The notes beneath the pieces are model-generated. The model worked only from the letters and a program-made list of their open reading frames with translations. It was not told the origin of the DNA and did no database searches. The position numbers and the translations under genes are program-made. Positions 158 to 29,713 of a DNA stretch of 37,700 nucleotides are shown here, in pieces (position 1 is the first letter of the stretch; each line of letters opens with the position of its first letter). The stretch is taken from the NCBI GenBank assembly GCA_020845935.1, contig JADLEV010000063.1:1-37700 (forward strand). Reading direction: 5' to 3'. This DNA comes from Gammaproteobacteria bacterium (GTDB lineage Bacteria > Pseudomonadota > Gammaproteobacteria > Ga0077536).

Positions 158-1810
158 TCAACGCCACGTGTCGACGGAAACGCTGCGGCCGTAGCGCATG
201 CCACCGTAGTCGTAATACAGGTTGTTGTAGCCTCCGGTGACCAGCAATTCATAACCACGGCTACCGGGCATCCGCCCCCCACCCTCACTACCGCCGGCGA
301 GTTCGGCAAGCAGTTTCTCGGCGGAATCGTAGCCCTCGTCCTTCAGATAATTCGCCACCGTCGGACTCAGCACCGCGACTGCACCAAACATCGGATCCTG
401 TTGCGCGAAGATGTTCTTCAACTGCGAGGCGAAGTTCATCTCCTTGGCCCAGACGCCGTGCACGGAGTTCTTCGCGGAGATCACACCCCAACCGGTGAAC
501 GTGCTGATGACGCTTTCATCCGCCTTGAAACCCTTGCGCACATGCAACGGCTGCCACGGCGAGGCGGCTTCGTTCTCGGCGATCACGATGTTGATCCAAT
601 TGGTCGGATTGCCGATGACGCCCATGTAGGTCGTGCCAACCTTGCCGGCGTTGCCGCCGTTGATGGACAACAAAGTCCAGGAGCGGCCGATGGTGCTGTT
701 GGCATGACCGAAGGGACCGAGCGCGCCGATCTCGTAGTTGAGGCCGATCTCGTCGCGGATCGGACCATTGATCACGACCGCGCGCGCGAAGGAATTGTCA
801 GAACTCGATATCGATTCCTCGCCGGCCGCGGCGAGCGCCAGAATCACCGGAAAGTACTTCGGCTCGGCCCCGGCCATCACCGCGTTCACGGCAACCGTCC
901 GCACCGTATAGCTCCAGAATTCGAATACGCCCGGTGTCGCCGCCATCCTGCCAACGACCTCGTCTGGACCGTGGCTGGTGCCGCGCAGCATTGCCGCGAC
1001 CTTCTCCTCGGTCGGCAGGATGATCGGCAGGTTGTCGGTCAGGCCGCGTTCGCGAAACAGACGTTGCAGGTTGTCGGCGGTATCCGGACCGAAACTCGCC
1101 GGGCCGGCGGATTGTTCGATGACCCGGGTCTGGCGATCCTCGGCTGCGAGCGGTTGCGTCAGGTGCGCAACGATTTCCTCCATCACCGGCTTCCCACTCA
1201 CCGGGTTGGCGCCGGTGAGGTACCTGGTGAGCTGCTCCTTGCTCTTCCCCCAGACCGGCGACGGCACGTAGGTGACGCGCAGGTTCGGCATGCCTTTCTT
1301 CAGCGCGTTTTCCGCAACCAGATTGCGGAACGGCGCCGTGATCAGTGCCACCGTCGGAATACCGAGTTCCGCTTCCATTTCGATGCAATGGCCGACGACC
1401 GCCGGCGTGCAGAGACTTCAATGCCCCATGCCCATCAGCATGGCGGCACCGTTGGCCTTGATCTCCTGAAACAGCCTCGGATCGGGGTCCGTGAAGCCGC
1501 CGGCCTTGCGCCGGTACACGGCCTTGACCTCCGGCATGTTCTGCTCGAACCAATCGACCATCAGGTTCAGCAGGACGTCACCGCCGAGGTAGCCGTCATC
1601 GACGATGTAGACGATCTTGCCGGCGAGCGTGTCGAGACGCTGTGCCATTGCCTTCAGCTGAATCGGCGGCGGCGTGCCCAGCGGACTCAGTACCGTATAG
1701 GTTGGTTCTTGCGCCTGAACCCGCGGCAGCAACAGCGCCAGCGCGAAACACCCGCCGAAAAACAACCTCCCGAAATCACACCCTGCCCAATCGCGTCTTT
1801 GTCTTCGCAT
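158..1810 (-). CDS. Exported UGSC-family selenoprotein with in-frame UGA (Sec131)
   Basis: Two open frames in the same phase are separated only by one TGA at 1418-1420; read through as selenocysteine they give 550 residues. The ATG at 1808-1810 is preceded by a good GAGAGGAGGG ribosome site. Residues 1-33 look like a signal peptide (Arg-rich start, hydrophobic 16-28, cleavage after VQA). The redox motif is GMGH-U131-SLC134-TP, followed by a GIPTVALIT strand and a PNLRVTYVPSP segment as in UGSC-family proteins. The family motif is U-G-S-C; here it is U-S-L-C. A long C-terminal region (about 200-550) has GRSWTLLSINGG and IVIAENEAASPW segments that I recall from longer family members. A SECIS-like hairpin with a GGUC loop follows the UGA. 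The reaction is unknown; a selenol-thiol redox role is inferred. It lies 100 nt downstream of the NIPSNAP gene, in the same direction. The normal stop is also TGA (158-160). Confidence 0.85.
1384..1420 (-). promoter_or_regulatory. SECIS element of the UGSC gene
   Basis: Downstream of the UGA (1420-1418, minus strand) the RNA can fold into a lower stem TGCA (1411-1408) with TGCA (1387-1384), a small internal loop, and an upper stem GCCGGC (1406-1401) with GTCGGC (1396-1391) containing one G-U pair. It closes a GGUC tetraloop (1400-1397). The loop starts 17 nt after the UGA. Bacterial SECIS elements sit directly after the UGA with a G in the first two loop bases, and the E. coli fdhF element also presents GGUC. 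The hairpin was read by eye; no folding energy was computed. Confidence 0.8.
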
Positions 1811-1849
1811 GGCCTGGACCCTCCTCTCTCGAACGGTCGCGGATCCCGA

Positions 1850-1910: not shown

Positions 1911-2750
1911 TCAGTGATACGGTGAGTACTCGGTCGGCGTCAGAAAGCGCACCGCAAAACTGGGCCGGGGCGGTGGCGCCGCGCCTGCCGCCGGTTGCGG
2001 TGCGCCGGGCCGCGCGTTGAATTTGGCCATGAAGTCGCGCATCTCGGCGAAGAAGCTCTGCCAGCAAGCCTTCGCGGTCTCGCGGTCCTTGTGTGCCAGC
2101 AGATATATGAAAGCGCTCTTGTCGGCGGCGGTCCAGAACTCGATCGGCTGCATGCCATGCTTGCCAAACAGCGCCGCCTCACCGAACTTCATCCGTTCCA
2201 CGGTCTCCGGCAAACCGGCTTCGCCAACATTGTATTGGCGAAGTTCGAAGATCCGGCCGGACACACCTTGGGCCTGAGCGATCGGCGGCAGCGTCACGCC
2301 GACGTCGACCGTGTTCAGATAGATTGACTGCGGTGCCTTTGCCAGCAGCGGACCGTTCGCTTCGGAGGCCCGCGATACCGCCTGCCAATCCGGATCGGCA
2401 AGGAATGCTTTCCATGAGGCCTCCGCCGCGGCGCGATCCTTGTGTGCGACGAGGTAGACCAGCGTATTGGCGAGGTCATCACCCTCCGCGCCTTCGGTCA
2501 TCGTCCAATAATAGAGGTTCTCGATACCGTGCTTGGCGAACAGCTGCAGGGTGTGATCGCGAAAGCGGGCATGCAGGTCGGCCAGTTTGCCGGGCGCGGC
2601 CACATAGATACGCAGTTCGTACAGTTTGGCGGGTGCACCTTGCGCCCGTGCATCAGGCGCTATCGCGATGACCAGCATGGCCAGCAATGCCGCACCGCTC
2701 AGGTGCCGCTGGAGCCAACGATTTGCGGTACTCGCACCACGGTAAAGCAT
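1911..2750 (-). CDS. Exported tandem NIPSNAP-domain protein
   Basis: 279 residues. Residues 1-36 form a signal peptide (hydrophobic LSGAALLAMLVIAIA, cleavage after ARA). Two NIPSNAP-type ferredoxin-like repeats follow: about 41-145, opening with YELRIYVAAPGKL, and about 167-255, opening with FELRQYNVGEAGL. Each contains KHGI/KHGM and a YLVAHKDR or YLLAHKDR strand. The tail ends PTEYSPYH, typical of the family. The biochemical role of NIPSNAP proteins is poorly defined, and bacterial members are mostly uncharacterised. The ATG (2748-2750) has a GAGGAG ribosome site 8-9 nt upstream. The gene precedes the UGSC selenoprotein in the same direction and both products are exported, so a shared envelope job is plausible but unproven. 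Confidence 0.88.
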   Translation of the reverse strand: MLYRGASTANRWLQRHLSGAALLAMLVIAIAPDARAQGAPAKLYELRIYVAAPGKLADLHARFRDHTLQLFAKHGIENLYYWTMTEGAEGDDLANTLVYLVAHKDRAAAEASWKAFLADPDWQAVSRASEANGPLLAKAPQSIYLNTVDVGVTLPPIAQAQGVSGRIFELRQYNVGEAGLPETVERMKFGEAALFGKHGMQPIEFWTAADKSAFIYLLAHKDRETAKACWQSFFAEMRDFMAKFNARPGAPQPAAGAAPPPRPSFAVRFLTPTEYSPYH

Positions 2751-2772
2751 CTGTCGTTCTCCTCAATCCGGC

Positions 2773-2790
2773 CGGTGCCCCGTGGCACCG
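2773..2790 (-). other. GC-rich hairpin between mgtE and the NIPSNAP gene
   Basis: A 7-bp perfect stem CGGTGCC/GGCACCG closes a CCGT-type tetraloop. It lies about 45 nt past the mgtE stop and just upstream of the NIPSNAP ribosome site. It lacks a T-run, so it could be a weak terminator for mgtE or a structured leader for the next gene. Confidence 0.4.
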
Positions 2791-2801
2791 TGCTGGCACT
2801 G

Positions 2802-2830
2802 AGTATAGGCCCGTTCGCAGCACCTAACAG
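2802..2830 (-). promoter_or_regulatory. Candidate sigma70 promoter for the NIPSNAP-UGSC pair
   Basis: On the minus strand a TATACT -10 box (2807-2802, 5 of 6 consensus) lies 17 nt from a weak -35, CTGTTA (2830-2825). It starts between the mgtE stop and the NIPSNAP ATG, so the pair could be transcribed separately from mgtE. Confidence 0.4.
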
Positions 2831-2833
2831 CGC

Positions 2834-4276
2834 CTAAAGCAGGAACAACGTTGCCAGTCCCAGGAAGATGAAAAACCCGCCGGAATCGGTCAGCCCGGTG
2901 ATCAGCACCGAACTGCCGAGCGCGGGGTCGCGGCGGAAATAGATCCGTGCCATCGGGATCAGCACACCGGCACCGGCGGCGAGCAACAGGTTGAGCATCA
3001 TCGCCGCGGCCATCACCAGCCCGAGCGGCACGCTGTCGTAGAGCCACCAGGCAAACAGGCCGAGCACGCTGCCCCAGAACAAACCGTTCAGCAGCGCGAC
3101 GCTGATCTCCTTGCGCAGCAACCGAGCCAGTGCCTTGGTCTCAACCTGACCCATCGCGATGGCACGGACGATCATCGTGATCGTCTGGTTGCCGGAGTTG
3201 CCACCGATGCCGGCGACGATCGGCATCAACGCCGCCAGCGCGACCAGACTTTCGATTGCCTGCTCGAACAAACCGATGACCCGCGACGCGACGATCGCGG
3301 TCACCATGTTGACCGCCAGCCAGCCCCAGCGATTGCGGACCGAGTCCCAGACACCGGCGAACACATCCTCTTCCTCGCGCAAGCCGGCCTGATTCAGGAT
3401 TTCTTGTGCGCTCTCTTCGCGGATGTAATCGACCGCCGCATCGACCGTCAGGCGGCCGATGACGCGGTGCGAGCCATCGACCACCGGTGCCGACACGAGG
3501 TCGTAGCGTTCGAACGCCTGGGCCGCGGCATGGGCATCATCGATCGGTTCGAAGCTGACGATCGCATCGCTGGACATCAATTCGCCGACGTTGCGTTCCG
3601 GATCGTTGGTCAGCAAGGATTCCAGCGACAACAGGCCGCGCAAACCGCCGGCACGGTCAACCACGAACAGCTGATCAGTGTGATCGGGCAATGCTTCGAA
3701 GCGCCGCAGGTAGCGCAGGACGACTTCGAGCGTGATGTCCTCGCGCACGCTGACCATGTCGAAACGCATCAGTGCGCCGACCGTATCCTCCGGATAGGAC
3801 ATCGCCGCGCGCAGTTGCGCCTGCTCCTCGGCGTCGAGCGACTGGAACACCTCGTCGAAAACGGCGCGCGGCAGATCCGGCGCGAGGTCGGCAAGTTCAT
3901 CGGCTTCGAGGGTCTCCGCGACCGCCTTCAGTTCCTGGCGATCCATCGTCTCGATCAGCGATTCGCGCACCGCATCCGAAACTTCGAGCAGGATTTCGCC
4001 GTCGCGCTCCGCCTTGACCAGTTCCCAGACGAACAGCCGCTGCCCGAGCGGCAGCGCTTCGAGGATGAACGCGACATTGGCGGGATGCAGTGCGTCCAAC
4101 AGCTGCCGCATGGTCAGGATTTCGGCCCGGTCAGCCAGTTCGACCGTACGCTGTGCGGCGCCAAGCCCATCTGCGCGCAGTGATTCCTCGTCGAGCCGCG
4201 CGGCACGCAACAGGTCTTCGACCTCGCGCAACTGCAACTGCACGTCGTCCGGATTGACCTTGTCGTCTGGCGCCAT
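2834..4276 (-). CDS. mgtE: Magnesium transporter MgtE
   Basis: 480 residues with the complete MgtE architecture: an N-terminal superhelical cytoplasmic domain (about 1-140), tandem CBS domains (about 145-270, for example DQLFVVDRAGGLRGLLSLES and SAPVVDGSHRVIGRLTV), a connecting helix, then five membrane segments from about residue 290. The pore signature PIVAGIGGNSGNQT is intact. The family imports Mg2+ and some divalent metals through the inner membrane as a homodimer, and the N and CBS domains close the channel when cytosolic Mg2+ is high. The ATG at 4274-4276 has only a weak ribosome site. It is divergent from the selenoprotein peroxiredoxin across 320 nt. I saw no convincing M-box riboswitch in its short leader. 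Confidence 0.96.
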   Translation of the reverse strand: MAPDDKVNPDDVQLQLREVEDLLRAARLDEESLRADGLGAAQRTVELADRAEILTMRQLLDALHPANVAFILEALPLGQRLFVWELVKAERDGEILLEVSDAVRESLIETMDRQELKAVAETLEADELADLAPDLPRAVFDEVFQSLDAEEQAQLRAAMSYPEDTVGALMRFDMVSVREDITLEVVLRYLRRFEALPDHTDQLFVVDRAGGLRGLLSLESLLTNDPERNVGELMSSDAIVSFEPIDDAHAAAQAFERYDLVSAPVVDGSHRVIGRLTVDAAVDYIREESAQEILNQAGLREEEDVFAGVWDSVRNRWGWLAVNMVTAIVASRVIGLFEQAIESLVALAALMPIVAGIGGNSGNQTITMIVRAIAMGQVETKALARLLRKEISVALLNGLFWGSVLGLFAWWLYDSVPLGLVMAAAMMLNLLLAAGAGVLIPMARIYFRRDPALGSSVLITGLTDSGGFFIFLGLATLFLL

Positions 4277-4596
4277 GGCGTGTTTGATTGGGCTGGCGGG
4301 AAAGATGGGTAGTTTAGCCCGCTTTGCTGTGGCGCCAATGCAGCGCCGGATCGTGGCAAACAGATCCGGTCATTCTCGACTGCACTTCGGCGATCCGGTG
4401 CAGGTCGGTTCCGACCCTTACCCGAACCTGGGTGCGGAACCAATCCGAACGGCGGATATCATGTCAATGTCGGGGCGACGACGTGCCGCTCTGACGCGGC
4501 GCGATCGATACATCGAGCGCTCCGGTCTGACGGCCGGCCGAGAGACTGGTTCTCGGTCCGTAGCTACCACCAAGTCTTCTTGGAAGGGGAATCGTC
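4277..4596. other. 320-nt divergent intergenic region, mgtE / peroxiredoxin
   Basis: No gene is supported here; open frames crossing it are short and low in complexity. It contains a candidate mgtE promoter on the minus strand, a possible TATCAT -10 box for the plus strand (4457-4462) without a recognisable -35, a small inverted repeat CCGAGA/TCTCGG (4538-4543 with 4551-4556), and a strong AAGGGGA-type ribosome site just before the peroxiredoxin ATG. I looked for a tRNA-Sec gene and saw none. Confidence 0.5.
4311..4338 (-). promoter_or_regulatory. Candidate mgtE promoter
   Basis: On the minus strand TTGGCG (4338-4333) and TAAACT (4316-4311) are 16 nt apart, giving a leader of about 30 nt before the mgtE ATG. 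Both boxes are partial matches to sigma70 consensus. Confidence 0.3.
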
Positions 4597-5151
4597 ATGA
4601 GCAAACTCAAGTCACTCACCAGCCGTTTGTTCGGCTTCGCCATGCTGGCGGCGGGGATCTCCGGTGCACGGTCCGGCGCGGCGCTGGAAGTCGGCGACCC
4701 GGCACCGGATTTCTCGTTGCCGGCATCGGATGGCAAGACCTATACCTTGCTGCAGTTCCGCGGGGTGCGGCCGGTGGTCATTGCCTTCTTCCCGAAGGCG
4801 TTCACCGGCGGTTGAACGGCCCAATGCAAAGCGCTGCGTGACAGCGCCGCGGAAATTCAGTCCTTCGATGTCGCCTATTTCATGGCGAGCGTCGATACGC
4901 TCGAGGACAACACCGCATTCGCCAAGGAACACAACGCCGGCTTCCCGATTCTCGCCGATCCGGACAAGACGGTCGCACGGACCTATGGCGTGCTGCACGC
5001 CGCCGGTTTCACCAACCGCTGGACTTTCTATATCGATGTCGAGGGCAAGGTGGCGCGCATCGATCGCGAGGTGAAACCACAGACCGCCGGAGCCGACCTG
5101 GCGCGCGCCATGGGGGAACTCGGGTTTCCGCGTCGCGGCCCGGCCCGCTAA
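4597..5151 (+). CDS. Exported peroxiredoxin selenoprotein (BCP/AhpC-TSA-like, Sec73)
   Basis: The frame runs from ATG 4597 to TAA 5149-5151 with one internal TGA (4813-4815), giving 184 residues with Sec at 73. A signal peptide covers about 1-29 ([19 protein letters not shown]). The mature part has the thioredoxin-fold peroxiredoxin pattern: [27 protein letters not shown], then P66-K-A-F-T70-G-G-U73-T-A-Q-C77. This fits the PxxxTxxC active-site signature with selenocysteine at the peroxidatic Cys and a possible resolving Cys four residues later. Downstream [18 protein letters not shown] and [13 protein letters not shown] are typical. Such enzymes reduce H2O2 and organic peroxides with thiol reductants; an envelope location is inferred from the signal peptide. 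A hairpin of SECIS geometry follows the UGA. The 3' end overlaps convergent folP by 4 nt. Confidence 0.9.
4813..4847 (+). promoter_or_regulatory. SECIS element of the peroxiredoxin gene
   Basis: After the UGA (4813-4815) a perfect 6-bp stem GCGCTG (4831-4836) with CAGCGC (4842-4847) closes a 5-nt loop CGUGA. The loop begins 21 nt after the UGA and carries G at its second position. This agrees with the general bacterial SECIS model (loop roughly 16-37 nt from the UGA, G in the first two loop bases). The loop differs from the GGUC of the UGSC gene. Confidence 0.7.
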
Positions 5152-6008
5152 TCAGAGATTGCCTCATCGGGAGCTTCACGGCTCGACCGGATCGCCCACG
5201 CGACATCGGCGGCCTGACGATTTGGCAGGACATCATGCACGCGCACGATGCGGACGCCGTGCGTGAATGCGAGCGCGGTCGTCGCGCAAGTAGCGCCCAC
5301 CAGGGCCGGATCCTGGTGGGCACCACATACGGTGCGCAACGTGCTCTTGCGACTCGCCCCGAGCAGAATCGGATAACCGGTCGCAACCAGTTCCGGCAGC
5401 CCCGTGAGCAGGGCAAGATTATGCGCAACAGTCTTGCCAAAACCGATCCCCGGGTCGAGCACGATGTGTTCGCGCGCGACACCGGCGCGTTCCGCCAGTT
5501 CGGCGCGCGCGAGCAGGTAGGCGCGAACCTCGCCGACGACATCGCGATAGGCCGGTGCCGCCTGCATCGTCGACGGAGCGCCGCGCATGTGCATCAGCAC
5601 GATCGGCACCCGCCGCTCCGCGGCCAGCGCGAACATGCCTGCCTCGGCGCCGGCGGCAATGTCGTTCAGCATCCCGGCGCCCAGATCGAGGGCTCGCTCC
5701 GCCACCCGCGGCAGGGTCGTGTCGACGCTTAGCAACAACCCCGGCAGCCGAACCCGCAACGCGCCAAGCACCGACTCGATGCGCCGTAATTGTTCCGTGG
5801 CATCGACCCTGGCTGCGCCCGGGCGCGTCGATTCACCGCCGATGTCGATGATGTCGGCGCCATGCCGTGCCATCGTTTCAGCCTGGGCGATGGCTTCGTC
5901 ATCGTCGGCATACCGTCCACCATCGCTGAAGCTGTCCGGCGTCAGGTTGAGCACGCCCATGATTAACGGTGTCCGTCGTGCCAGCAACCCGGCCCACGTC
6001 GCCTTCAC
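5148..6008 (-). CDS. folP: Dihydropteroate synthase
   Basis: 286 residues, near the usual length. FolP joins p-aminobenzoate to 6-hydroxymethyl-7,8-dihydropterin pyrophosphate in folate synthesis and is the sulfonamide target. Signatures in order are GVLNLTPDSFSDGG (residues 18-31, pterin diphosphate/Mg site), GGESTRPGA, LSVDTT, LMHMRG, DPGIGFGKT, LGASRKS and RVHDV, so the active site appears complete. The start is GTG at 6008-6006, overlapping the stop of the upstream response regulator (GTGA), which indicates translational coupling. folP is often next to glmM and ftsH; here it follows a regulator instead. Its TAG stop overlaps the convergent peroxiredoxin stop. Confidence 0.95.
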   Translation of the reverse strand: MKATWAGLLARRTPLIMGVLNLTPDSFSDGGRYADDDEAIAQAETMARHGADIIDIGGESTRPGAARVDATEQLRRIESVLGALRVRLPGLLLSVDTTLPRVAERALDLGAGMLNDIAAGAEAGMFALAAERRVPIVLMHMRGAPSTMQAAPAYRDVVGEVRAYLLARAELAERAGVAREHIVLDPGIGFGKTVAHNLALLTGLPELVATGYPILLGASRKSTLRTVCGAHQDPALVGATCATTALAFTHGVRIVRVHDVLPNRQAADVAWAIRSSREAPDEAISD

Positions 6009-6679
6009 TGTAATGCCTCCACCTCGACCACACCGTACTGGATCGCCAACAGCGCCAGTTCGGCTACGGTCCTCACTCCCAATTTGGTCTTGATGCGGGT
6101 GCCGTAGTTGGCCACCGTCTTGCGGCTCAGTGACAACCGCCGCGCGATGTCTGCCGCCGATGCGCCCCCCGCAAGCAGACGAAACACTTCGAACTCCCGC
6201 GGACCGAGGCGCAGCAGTGGGGAATTCTTGTGCTGCACCCGCTGCAGCGCCAGCCGCTGTGCCATATCGCGGTCGATTACCACCTTGCCCGCCGCAACCT
6301 GGATGACCGCATTGATGAGGCCGTCGGCCGCGCTGCTTTTCATGATGTAGCCCCGTGCACCAGCTCGCAGCGCCTGATCGGCCCAGACTGTTGCCTCGTG
6401 AATCGAGTGCACCAGAATCCGCGCGTTGGGGTCCCTGACGACGATTCGCCGGATGGCCTCCAGGCCGCCGAGCCCAGGCAGGGTGAGGTCCATGATCATG
6501 ACGTCGGGGCGGAGTTCGAGGTAGGTGCGGTAGGCGGGTTCCGCGCGGTCGAGTTCCGCCCGAATCCGTATTTTGCCGGAACTCTGCAGAATCACTCGAC
6601 AGCCGGCGCGCACTACCGCGTGGTCCTCGACCAGCACGACATCGATAATCCGGTTGGCCACCAACTCCGTTCTTTCCAT
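6005..6679 (-). CDS. NarL/LuxR-type response regulator
   Basis: 224 residues. The N-terminal receiver domain (about 12-130) has the acidic pair E18-D19, the phosphoacceptor D64 in DVMIMDLTLPG and the conserved Lys in GYIMKSSAA. The C-terminal LuxR-type helix-turn-helix (about 155-215) reads LGPREFEVFRLLAGGASAADIARRLSLSRKTVANY in two halves. The order is that of GacA/UvrY/NarL relatives. It should be a DNA-binding regulator activated by phosphorylation. No histidine kinase lies in the window, so the partner is unknown. The gene is the first of a two-gene unit with folP (GTGA overlap) and is divergent from the adenylate cyclase across 182 nt, so it may control either side. That is inference only. 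Confidence 0.92.
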   Translation of the reverse strand: MERTELVANRIIDVVLVEDHAVVRAGCRVILQSSGKIRIRAELDRAEPAYRTYLELRPDVMIMDLTLPGLGGLEAIRRIVVRDPNARILVHSIHEATVWADQALRAGARGYIMKSSAADGLINAVIQVAAGKVVIDRDMAQRLALQRVQHKNSPLLRLGPREFEVFRLLAGGASAADIARRLSLSRKTVANYGTRIKTKLGVRTVAELALLAIQYGVVEVEALQ

Positions 6680-6749
6680 ACCGCCTCCCTTGCGTCAGCC
6701 GCCGGCGCCGGGGCGTCGATCGGCCGGATGTGGATCCTGATTACGGTTG

Positions 6750-6777
6750 TTTACATGTCGTCCGCGCCGGGTAGAAT
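6750..6777 (+). promoter_or_regulatory. Candidate sigma70 promoter of the adenylate cyclase gene
   Basis: TTTACA (6750-6755) and TAGAAT (6772-6777) are separated by 16 nt, each matching 5 of 6 consensus bases. This puts the start of transcription near 6785 and gives a leader of about 80 nt before the ATG at 6862. Confidence 0.55.
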
Positions 6778-6861
6778 AGGGCCCGGCAGTACCGCGCATT
6801 ATAAAGAAAAGACGGTGTCCGGGATTCAAGTTCGCGGGCCGCCCACCGAGGTACGCTGTTT

Positions 6862-9270
6862 ATGACCCACGACCCAACGGTATCCGTGCTGGCGGATACC
6901 AGGACGGCAGCCGATTCAGCGCAGCACCTGCTTTTAGACTGGTTCGAACGCTGTGCGCGGCACACCGCACTGGAACGCGCAATCTCGTCGCTCTCCGAAG
7001 ACGAGCGGCTTGGTTTGCATCATCGCATCGATGACCTCGCGACGCGGCTGGACGCGCTGATCGAGGCGACGCGATGCATCTCGCGGCACCTCCCCCTGGA
7101 TGAATTGCTACATGGCCTGATTGGCCTGATCAGCGATGCATTCAACGCCGACCGCAGCACGTTGTTCCTGTATGACGCGGACAACGATGAACTTTTCTCC
7201 CGCGTGGCACAGGGCGACCTCGTCAGCGAGATCCGGTTTGCCAGCAAAGAAGGGATTGCCGGATCGGTGTTTTCCTCCGGCGTGAGCGCCATCGTGCCGC
7301 AGGCCTATGCGGACCCCAGATTCAGTCCTCGTATCGATGCGGAAACAGGTTATCGCACCGCAAGTCTGCTCTGCGTCCCGGTCCGTGCCCGCGATGGTCA
7401 AGTCATTGGCGTCACTGAAGTATTGAACAAGCGCGTCGGCGAATTCACTGCCGCGGACCAGGCGTTGCTGGAAGCGTTCACCACCCACACCGCGATTGCC
7501 CTGGAGAATGCGCATCTCGTCGAGCGTGCCCGCGTGTCACAGCGCGAGGAATCCCGCCTGGTCGAAATTACCCAGGCCATTTCCTCGGAACTCGACCTCG
7601 ACAAGCTCCTGCGGAAAATCATGCAGATTGCCACCGATTTGCTGGATGCCGAGCGCAGCACGCTGTTCCTGCACGACCCGCGTCGTGGCGAGCTCTGGTC
7701 TCGAGTCGCGGAGGGGATCGAACAACCGGATATCCGCCTGCCCGATCGCCGCGGCATCGCCGGTCACGTCTTCCGGACACGCACGGTGGTCAACATCCGT
7801 GATGCCTATGCCGATGCGCGGTTCAACCAGGATGTTGATCAACAGACCGGTTACCGGACGCAAACGGTTCTCTGCGTCCCGGTCATTGACAAGATGGGCA
7901 GTGCGGTCGGCGTGATGCAGGTTCTGAACAAGAACAACGGCGGTCACTTCAGCAGGCGTGATGAACGCCGGCTGGAACTGCTCGCCGCCCAGAGCGCTAT
8001 CGCGCTGGACAACGCCCGGCTGTTCCGCGACGTGCTGCAGGAGCGGAACTATTGCGAAAACGTGCTGCGCAGTCTGACCAACGGAGTCATCACGCTGGAC
8101 GACCGCCACCGTATCGAAACGGTCAACGATGCCGCATTGCGGACCTTGAAACGCGACGTACGCGATGTTCTGGGCCGCAGTGCCGAACAGGTCTTTACCA
8201 GCGACAATCGCTGGATTCTCGGGGCCGTGCGTAGGGTCAACGAATCCCGTCTTCCCGATACCACGCTGGATGCAACCTATCAACGGGATGATGGCGAATC
8301 GATTTCGGTCAACGTCATCTCGTCACCGATTTACGAAGCCAATCAGTCGGTTCTCGGTTCGATGCTCGTGATTGAGGACATTACCGCGGAGAAACGCATT
8401 CGCGGCGCCATGTCACGCTACATGAACAAGGAGTTGGTCGACCAGTTGCTCGCTGCCGGCGATGCGGCGCTTGGTGGATGCGCGCAACAGGCAACGATCC
8501 TGTTTGCCGATATTCGCAACTTCACCAACATCAGCGAGCGTCTCGGGCCACAGGGTACCGTGGCGATGCTGAACCAATTCTTCACCACAATGGTGGACGT
8601 CATCTTCAAGCACGGCGGCATCCTCGACAAATACATCGGGGACGCAATCATGGCGGTGTTCGGCACGCCCTTTCCCGCCGCGGACGATGCCGAACGCGCG
8701 GTCCGGGTCGCGATCGAGATGCTGGAAGTCCTGGCGCGGCTTAATCGCGAGCGCGTCGCCGCCGGCCATGAGCCGATCGAAATCCGCATCGGCATCAATT
8801 CCGACGAGGTCGTGGCCGGCAACATTGGTTCCGTACGCCGGATGGATTACACGGTGGTAGGTGACGGCGTGAACCTCGCGTCGCGGCTGGAATCGGCAAA
8901 CAAGTTTTTCGGTACGAGAATCTTGGCCAGCGGATCAACCGTGCGGCAACTGTCCGGACGGTACCTGCTGCGCGAACTCGACTTGATTCGAGTCCGCGGC
9001 CGGGAACTTCCGGTCGCCCTGTTCGAGGTGATGGGCCGCTGGTCCCAGGCCGAAACGAACGCCGCCCAGGAGTTCATCGGTCATTTCGAGCGTGGCTTGC
9101 GCTTGTACCGGGCGTCGCAGTTTCAGGACGCAATCGGTGCCTTCGCGGTCGCGCAAGCCTTGCGCCCGGATGATCGGCCATGCCGGATATTCATCGAGCG
9201 TTCCCGCCGCTACATGGCCGCACCTCCTTCGTCCGATTGGGATGGCGTCTGGTCGTTGCGCGAGAATTAG
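6862..9270 (+). CDS. Class III adenylate cyclase, GAF-GAF-PAS-cyclase
   Basis: 802 residues without membrane segments. After about 60 N-terminal residues come GAF-A (about 62-220), GAF-B (about 232-390), PAS (about 400-510), the cyclase homology domain (about 540-720) and a helical TPR-like tail. This is the layout of cyanobacterial CyaB1. Catalytic residues are present: metal-binding D550 (FADIRNFTN) and D594 (GDAIMAVFG), K590 and D662 consistent with adenine selection, and N671/R675 in VNLASRLE. It should therefore make cAMP, not cGMP. GAF-B has a full NKxnFxxxDE motif (N356-K357, F363, D367-E368), known from cyclic-nucleotide-binding GAF domains. GAF-A has N189-K190, F195, D199 but Gln at 200. 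Feedback by cAMP is a reasonable inference. The stop is followed by 166 nt before the next gene. Confidence 0.93.
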   Translation: MTHDPTVSVLADTRTAADSAQHLLLDWFERCARHTALERAISSLSEDERLGLHHRIDDLATRLDALIEATRCISRHLPLDELLHGLIGLISDAFNADRSTLFLYDADNDELFSRVAQGDLVSEIRFASKEGIAGSVFSSGVSAIVPQAYADPRFSPRIDAETGYRTASLLCVPVRARDGQVIGVTEVLNKRVGEFTAADQALLEAFTTHTAIALENAHLVERARVSQREESRLVEITQAISSELDLDKLLRKIMQIATDLLDAERSTLFLHDPRRGELWSRVAEGIEQPDIRLPDRRGIAGHVFRTRTVVNIRDAYADARFNQDVDQQTGYRTQTVLCVPVIDKMGSAVGVMQVLNKNNGGHFSRRDERRLELLAAQSAIALDNARLFRDVLQERNYCENVLRSLTNGVITLDDRHRIETVNDAALRTLKRDVRDVLGRSAEQVFTSDNRWILGAVRRVNESRLPDTTLDATYQRDDGESISVNVISSPIYEANQSVLGSMLVIEDITAEKRIRGAMSRYMNKELVDQLLAAGDAALGGCAQQATILFADIRNFTNISERLGPQGTVAMLNQFFTTMVDVIFKHGGILDKYIGDAIMAVFGTPFPAADDAERAVRVAIEMLEVLARLNRERVAAGHEPIEIRIGINSDEVVAGNIGSVRRMDYTVVGDGVNLASRLESANKFFGTRILASGSTVRQLSGRYLLRELDLIRVRGRELPVALFEVMGRWSQAETNAAQEFIGHFERGLRLYRASQFQDAIGAFAVAQALRPDDRPCRIFIERSRRYMAAPPSSDWDGVWSLREN

Positions 9271-29583: not shown

Positions 29584-29685
29584 GGTGTTCTCCTGATCAG
29601 GGTTTTGCTTCCGTAAACCCCGCGGATCGATCCGGCATTGACGACATTGCTGGACACCCTGATCCACGTGTCGGTGTACGGGCGG

Positions 29686-29713
29686 ATTGCGCGTTGCGCG
29701 GGCGCTTTATAAC
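29686..29713 (+). promoter_or_regulatory. Candidate map promoter
   Basis: TATAAC (29708-29713) is a good -10 box, about 42 nt before the map ATG. The -35 16 nt upstream (ATTGCG, 29686-29691) is weak. The -10 box overlaps that of the divergent rpsB promoter. Confidence 0.3.

Follow-up and report, generated by a model that had tools for sequence, protein, structure and literature searches.

A probable exported two-domain UGSC selenoprotein whose Sec-bearing domain appears distantly related to that of GrdB

The gene on the minus strand at positions 158-1810 of the window (the whole stretch of 37 700 nucleotides that was analysed) probably encodes an exported two-domain selenoprotein of the UGSC family that would act as a GrdB-related reductive cleavage enzyme; we give this statement as a whole a probability of about 0.65. 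The UGSC selenoprotein family, its selenocysteine (Sec) and one fusion to an unnamed domain were published in 2008, and UGSC was reported there to be one of the most frequent selenoprotein families of aquatic metagenomes (Zhang & Gladyshev, 2008; PMC2398784). UGSC proteins with UAG as the Sec codon are also on record (PMC5330540).

Gene structure

The minus strand from 1810 to 158 is one frame of 550 codons, in which translation finds a single interior stop, the TGA at 1420-1418 (codon 131; Table 1). The table-11 list of open reading frames cuts the gene into separate ORFs of 406 aa (158-1378) and 163 aa (1418-1909), just as the initial annotation had expected ordinary gene calling to give two adjacent proteins or a pseudogene. 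Its reading of the frame as open on both sides of a single TGA was borne out by translation and by the GC3, which is equal across the TGA (0.78 before, 0.80 after). The NIPSNAP-domain gene upstream is possibly co-transcribed with the UGSC gene; it is absent beside the other UGSC genes examined and no functional link between the two is claimed.

Table 1 Features of the UGSC gene and its upstream neighbour (window positions)
Feature	Position	Strand	Basis
Complete CDS, 550 residues, Sec = residue 131	158..1810	-	Translation; homologues co-linear over residues 35-550
Start codon ATG	1810-1808	-	Translation
True stop TGA	158-160	-	Translation
In-frame TGA, almost certainly selenocysteine, residue 131	1418..1420	-	TGA in 80/102 and Cys in 18/102 fused homologues; same position in 13/13 own genes
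Cys134, second residue of the UxxC pair, three codons past the TGA	1409..1411	-	Conserved in 95/97 alignment rows
Strong ribosome-binding site GGAGGG, 8 nt upstream of the ATG	1819..1824	-	Sequence
Predicted signal peptide MRRQRRDWAGCDFGRLFFGGCFALALLLPRVQA, probable cleavage before QEP	1712..1810	-	Read from sequence
UGSC domain, residues 40-196	1223..1693	-	PF24696, 77 bits; secondary structure of model
C-terminal partner domain, about residues 236-550	161..1105	-	Own gene in relatives; without known family or confident fold match
Bacterial SECIS candidate, 6-bp stem GCCGGC/GUCGGC, GGUC apical loop	1391..1406	-	Folding; family-level hairpin comparison
Upstream neighbour, NIPSNAP-domain protein with signal peptide	1911..2750	-	PF07978, 69 bits; 100 nt gap

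Evidence for selenocysteine at the UGA

That UGA 131 is read as selenocysteine is, from the comparisons below, close to certain. A search of named genomes seeded with a seven-row alignment gave at least 535 fused relatives; the best 80 loci were kept and 102 near-complete fused proteins were read. The residue at position 131, where the initial annotation had asked for Sec or Cys, is encoded by a single TGA exactly at the window codon in 80 of the 102, is Cys in 18 and is neither in four. The TGA-bearing homologues are spread over many phyla; Neorhizobium galegae and Halalkalicoccus jeotgali are among the organisms with a Cys-type homologue. Homologues ending at or beginning after the UGA, which had been named as the refuting case, were not found; where relatives have a split system, the partner gene begins past a complete UGSC domain and not at the UGA. 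In a tree of the family, Cys arose at least three times, on well supported branches. The four proteins with neither residue come from two opposite-strand gene pairs (locus L142, 2039-3742 on the minus and 4007-5788 on the plus strand; locus L166, 5846-7546 on the minus and 3980-5758 on the plus strand) and are possibly inactive or regulatory paralogues. One Acidiferrales contig (L116) has three tandem fused genes at 121-1797, 2041-3693 and 3875-5605; one encodes Sec at this position, while the other two encode Cys and belong to the Cys origins counted on the tree.

The distribution of selA follows this division. Of the 37 genomes compared, 25 hold TGA-type genes, and in 24 of these selA scores above the cut-off; in the 25th there is a selA fragment where a contig ends. 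No selA passes in the 12 genomes whose UGSC genes are all of the Cys type. The genomes and sequences are mutually related, so neither these counts nor those of Sec and Cys are independent, but the split is complete.

The candidate SECIS hairpin starts 11 nt past the UGA and on its own does not reach significance (z = -1.15 with dinucleotide shuffles as the reference). The signal appears at the level of the family: when hairpins at the SECIS position were compared with synonymous-codon shuffles that keep the protein, the mean z was 1.46 for 93 Sec genes and -0.28 for 18 Cys genes, and with a GU loop required it was 1.91 and 0.00, respectively. At random positions within these genes the value was 0.16. 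The difference between Sec and Cys genes has a Mann-Whitney p of about 2e-8. The overall folding energy of the sequence after the UGA carries no signal; only a hairpin at the SECIS distance does.

Copies in the same genome and their origin

A search of the metagenome-assembled genome (MAG) that contains the window found 13 UGSC genes on ten contigs and one 66-residue fragment; the MAG is 2.16 Mb long and 62.5% complete, with a reported contamination of 0.9%, and the count of 13 is a minimum. In all 13 genes a single in-frame TGA is present, always in the same alignment column. Eleven extend through the C-terminal domain and two are cut by contig ends, one within that domain and the other short of it. 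The fragment (L050, 8575-8772) has neither a start nor the active site and is probably a decayed paralogue; the opposite strand encodes a complete copy about 2.5 kb away. Copy numbers elsewhere reach 28 (G059), 27 (G093) and 23 (G094) per genome.

The tree took in eight of the 13 UGSC genes of this genome. Recent lineage-specific duplication is not supported as their source, as the eight placed copies sit apart; several of them (those of L044, L045, L049, L050 and the window) adjoin different Acidobacteriota copies. From this placement the copies look like several old paralogues, perhaps acquired, and their scattered positions among Acidobacteriota, set against the proteobacterial gene order of the window, suggest repeated horizontal transfer. 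Contamination of the window contig, to which the gene-order check was applied, was ruled out by the order rpsB-tsf-pyrH, rseP-bamA, fabZ-lpxA-lpxB, accA and tilS together with the low reported contamination; we take this order to be that of Escherichia coli. The window also contains a t44 RNA (the rpsB leader) at 29602-29702 on the minus strand, which scores above the Rfam cut-off (RF00127).

Selenocysteine machinery

The sel genes, which the initial annotation had suggested looking for, were recovered in part: selD is present in the MAG (435 bits), but in this 62.5% complete assembly selA was not found and nothing for selB or selC scored above the cut-off. Those tRNA-Sec-like matches that were checked proved to be ordinary tRNAs. 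In genomes of the same family, selA and selC are near-universal (31/35 and 32/35 genomes, respectively) and clustered, and G008, the only relative of 100% completeness in which selA and selC are missing, has no UGSC either. In three genomes (G005, G009 and G016) selA is immediately preceded by the UGSC gene and its partner. The simplest reading of the missing genes is the loss of one sel locus from the incomplete assembly.

Two plasmid loci were noted in other organisms. Plasmid pFER4 of the culturable Paracoccus ferrooxidans (L184, 6396-8053) has a split UGSC gene with a UGA (ANUGSCTSW) followed by the partner gene, with selB 3.3 kb further on; in the annotation this UGSC gene appears as two hypothetical proteins. 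Plasmid p2-T1 of Acidovorax sp. T1 (L183, about 6400-8600) is a conjugative IncP plasmid; the fused Sec-type UGSC gene that it carries has IS1071 and IS91 elements for neighbours and is unannotated in the matched part.

The UGSC domain and its relationship to GrdB

The joined protein matches the Pfam UGSC model (PF24696) across the TGA with 77 bits (cut-off 25; model positions 2-157 of 172), while the downstream and upstream pieces alone give 31.3 and 21.1 bits. The assignment to UGSC thus stands at the level of Pfam; the narrower NCBIfam equivalog model (NF041046) gives 56 bits, below its cut-off of 125, which the split UGSC protein of a relative passes with 128.9 bits. The further claim that both halves belong to one family holds in that the match spans the TGA, but only about 157 residues are UGSC and the last 315 or so form a different domain. 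The active-site motif is U131-S-L-C134 and not U-G-S-C. In an alignment of 97 rows the first position of U/C-x-x-C is kept in 93 and Cys134 in 95. The window protein shares the Sec-bearing domain and the UxxC site with the known UGSC-containing selenoproteins (PMC2398784; PF24696; NF041046) and differs from the split members seen here, which are small and have no second domain, in its length of 550 residues, its predicted export, its U-S-L-C motif and its score below the NF041046 cut-off.

The AlphaFold model of the protein is confident (pLDDT 92.1, pTM 0.90). The UGSC domain is built of alternating β-strands and α-helices (Rossmann-like), with Sec at the C-terminal end of the third core strand (residues 123-129) and the N-terminal end of the helix 134-149. 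A profile comparison with hhalign placed split UGSC over GrdB-like proteins with Sec on Sec (probability 95.1, E = 2.9e-8), and the fused family alone matched GrdB with probability 79.4 and E = 1.5e-5, the homology being limited to about 70-85 residues around Sec. The NCBIfam models cross-match as well (UGSC_fam on GrdB, 2.7e-6; gly_red_sel_B on UGSC, 6.1e-5). The window protein itself gave no match to PF07355 in Pfam at E values up to 10 and none to TIGR01917/01918 in NCBIfam at 0.1. Common to UGSC and GrdB (TIGR01917, PF07355)/PrdB are the Sec in a U-x-x-C pair, the helix that follows and the G-I-P and P-H-P motifs; GrdB differs in having another N-terminal half and in working with GrdE and GrdA, whereas UGSC has a partner domain of its own. 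Neither GrdE or GrdA genes nor a pyruvoyl-type partner were recognized beside UGSC. On these profile matches, we take the window protein to be related to GrdB and not to be a GrdB; it is likely that the domain carrying its Sec is distantly related to the Sec region of glycine reductase protein B (GrdB) and of the D-proline reductase PrdB, components of the enzymes by which anaerobes cleave glycine and proline reductively. The description of the UGA as lying at a redox site beside Cys134 is correct as to the UxxC pair, but 'GrdB-like Sec site' describes it better.

Partner domain and gene neighbourhood

Searches of other genomes of the order found two genes in place of the fusion, one for the UGSC part and one for the C-terminal part, the partner product having about 350-500 residues. 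At 15 of 29 split loci the partner carries an N-terminal thioredoxin-like domain (KKDCPTC...VPTL), which matches solved thioredoxins in a profile search (best E = 4.7e-7). A thioredoxin-reductase-like flavoprotein gene adjoins the fused UGSC gene on the same strand at 12 loci, including L047 of the same genome as the window; the loci seen with this arrangement are of the non-exported kind.

None of 76 members of the C-terminal domain matches Pfam and no believable match was found in NCBIfam. Its invariant residues include D259, R376 and E412. The domain is modelled with a pLDDT of 90.4, and a fold search of the PDB and viral sets gave no match at E ≤ 1e-3. Resemblances to fumarate hydratase (1.4e-3) and to cyclic amide hydrolases are weak (TM about 0.2) and were not believed.

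The neighbours of UGSC genes are catabolic and varied: a syringate/vanillate O-demethylase-like protein, an IlvD-like dehydratase, MmgE/PrpD, SDR and glyoxalase-like proteins and, in several Acidobacteriota, PQQ-type dehydrogenases. Such variety fits a family with many substrates and proves none of them. The syringate O-demethylase-like gene (L105, 975-2369; 801.8 bits, cut-off 800) lies immediately ahead of a fused UGSC gene, which hints at aromatics derived from lignin.

Export

The window protein is very probably exported. Its N-terminus, which is disordered in the model (pLDDT 39-63), has RR..RR, a hydrophobic core and an A-X-A-like VQA, so that the signal peptide proposed earlier is supported by inspection of the sequence. 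Inspection likewise finds a signal-peptide-like N-terminus in 11 of the 13 UGSC genes of this genome; the other two (L047, 9501-11132, and L048, 3970-5595) begin directly with the UGSC domain. Acidobacterial members have a Tat-like start, MNRRKLLSLLGxSPALLAG. Grd and Prd enzymes are not known to be exported. The genes neighbouring exported members vary between loci. Periplasmic PQQ-dehydrogenase-like proteins were seen near exported UGSC genes at L114 (4278-5891) and, similarly, at L113, L118, L121, L122 and L124; they include a match to the 'acido-empty-quinoprotein' model that is below the cut-off.

Discussion

Two readings would deny a selenocysteine altogether. If the TGA were a real stop, with two proteins made, or the mark of a pseudogene or sequencing error, the failure to find selA, selB and selC in the MAG would be accounted for; we consider this very improbable, as 13 paralogues and 80 homologues have the same TGA with frames open on both sides, the GC3 does not change across it and Cys takes the place of Sec where selA is absent. 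Genome-wide reassignment of UGA, for example to Trp, would equally explain why it is read through in 13 genes, but is hardly credible: at the conserved C-terminus of the window protein and of several paralogues the frame is closed by UGA, and the residue with which homologues occupy position 131 is Cys rather than Trp, for which reasons reassignment was rejected.

The remaining alternatives accept the Sec and concern the reaction. The UxxC spacing, and the fact that most Sec proteins with UxxC are thiol oxidoreductases, would suit an exported thiol-disulfide oxidoreductase of thioredoxin-like fold that exchanges disulfides or reduces envelope peroxides, and the 2008 survey guessed such a fold for UGSC (PMC2398784). 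We regard this as improbable, because the confident model has an alternating β-α order with Sec after the third core strand, and the UGSC profiles match GrdB and no thioredoxin in the PDB, where the thioredoxin-like domain of the partner does find matches. A reaction that is neither reductive cleavage nor disulfide exchange, with Sec as the nucleophile of a transferase, say, or binding or carrying metals or selenium, is rather unlikely; in its favour, the C-terminal domain has no known family or PDB fold and the neighbours are mixed catabolic genes. Against it, the relationship to GrdB and the thioredoxin-like and thioredoxin-reductase-like reducing partners beside part of the family point to dithiol-driven reduction.

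Reductive bond cleavage as the chemistry of UGSC is proposed tentatively, at somewhat under even odds, by analogy with GrdB and PrdB, in which the Sec selenolate breaks a C-N bond and electrons are passed from a dithiol (PMC10298544); cleavage of the C-F bond of fluoroacetate has been connected with a GrdB-like operon (PMC10838667). The ribosome would read UGA 131 as selenocysteine, aided by the hairpin directly downstream, and the preprotein would be exported by means of its N-terminal signal peptide. The C-terminal domain may then hold an organic substrate in place while the Sec131 selenolate attacks one of its carbons, breaking a carbon-heteroatom bond; Cys134 would release Sec131 as a Sec131-Cys134 selenenylsulfide, which a dithiol would re-reduce. 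Electrons could come from the thioredoxin-like domain fused to the partner in split relatives and from the product of the adjoining thioredoxin-reductase-like flavoprotein gene in cytoplasmic fused relatives; exported members would need another supply, and the periplasmic location of Sec and thiols without an obvious thioredoxin supply counts against the mechanism. The many paralogues in a genome may serve different substrates.

The closest published arrangement is the UGSC/Unknown_1 fusion (PMC2398784, Figure S1A), which also joins UGSC to one conserved extra domain; Unknown_1 is a candidate for identity with the C-terminal domain, and the accessible portions of that paper do not mention export, copy number or a relationship to GrdB. 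A literature search with most subscription journals outside its scope found no report of an exported form, of 10-28 copies per genome, of a relationship to GrdB or of a thioredoxin-like partner. As a pattern, many exported paralogues per genome that are thought to serve different substrates are familiar from the reductive dehalogenases. These are unrelated to UGSC, being cobalamin and iron-sulfur enzymes without Sec.

On a wider view, which we consider doubtful, UGSC and its partner might constitute a large, unrecognized branch of glycine/proline-reductase-type selenoenzymes at work in bacteria of soil and water. Its members would often act outside the cytoplasm, and the 10-28 copies in a genome would each cleave a different organic compound reductively. 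The link to GrdB and PrdB, the partner domain and the thioredoxin-like and thioredoxin-reductase-like donors suggest a concrete assay, namely for the cleavage of small organic substrates driven by dithiols. With the exported, many-copy form, some genomes would devote 10-28 selenoprotein genes to UGSC, which standard annotation cuts at the UGA.
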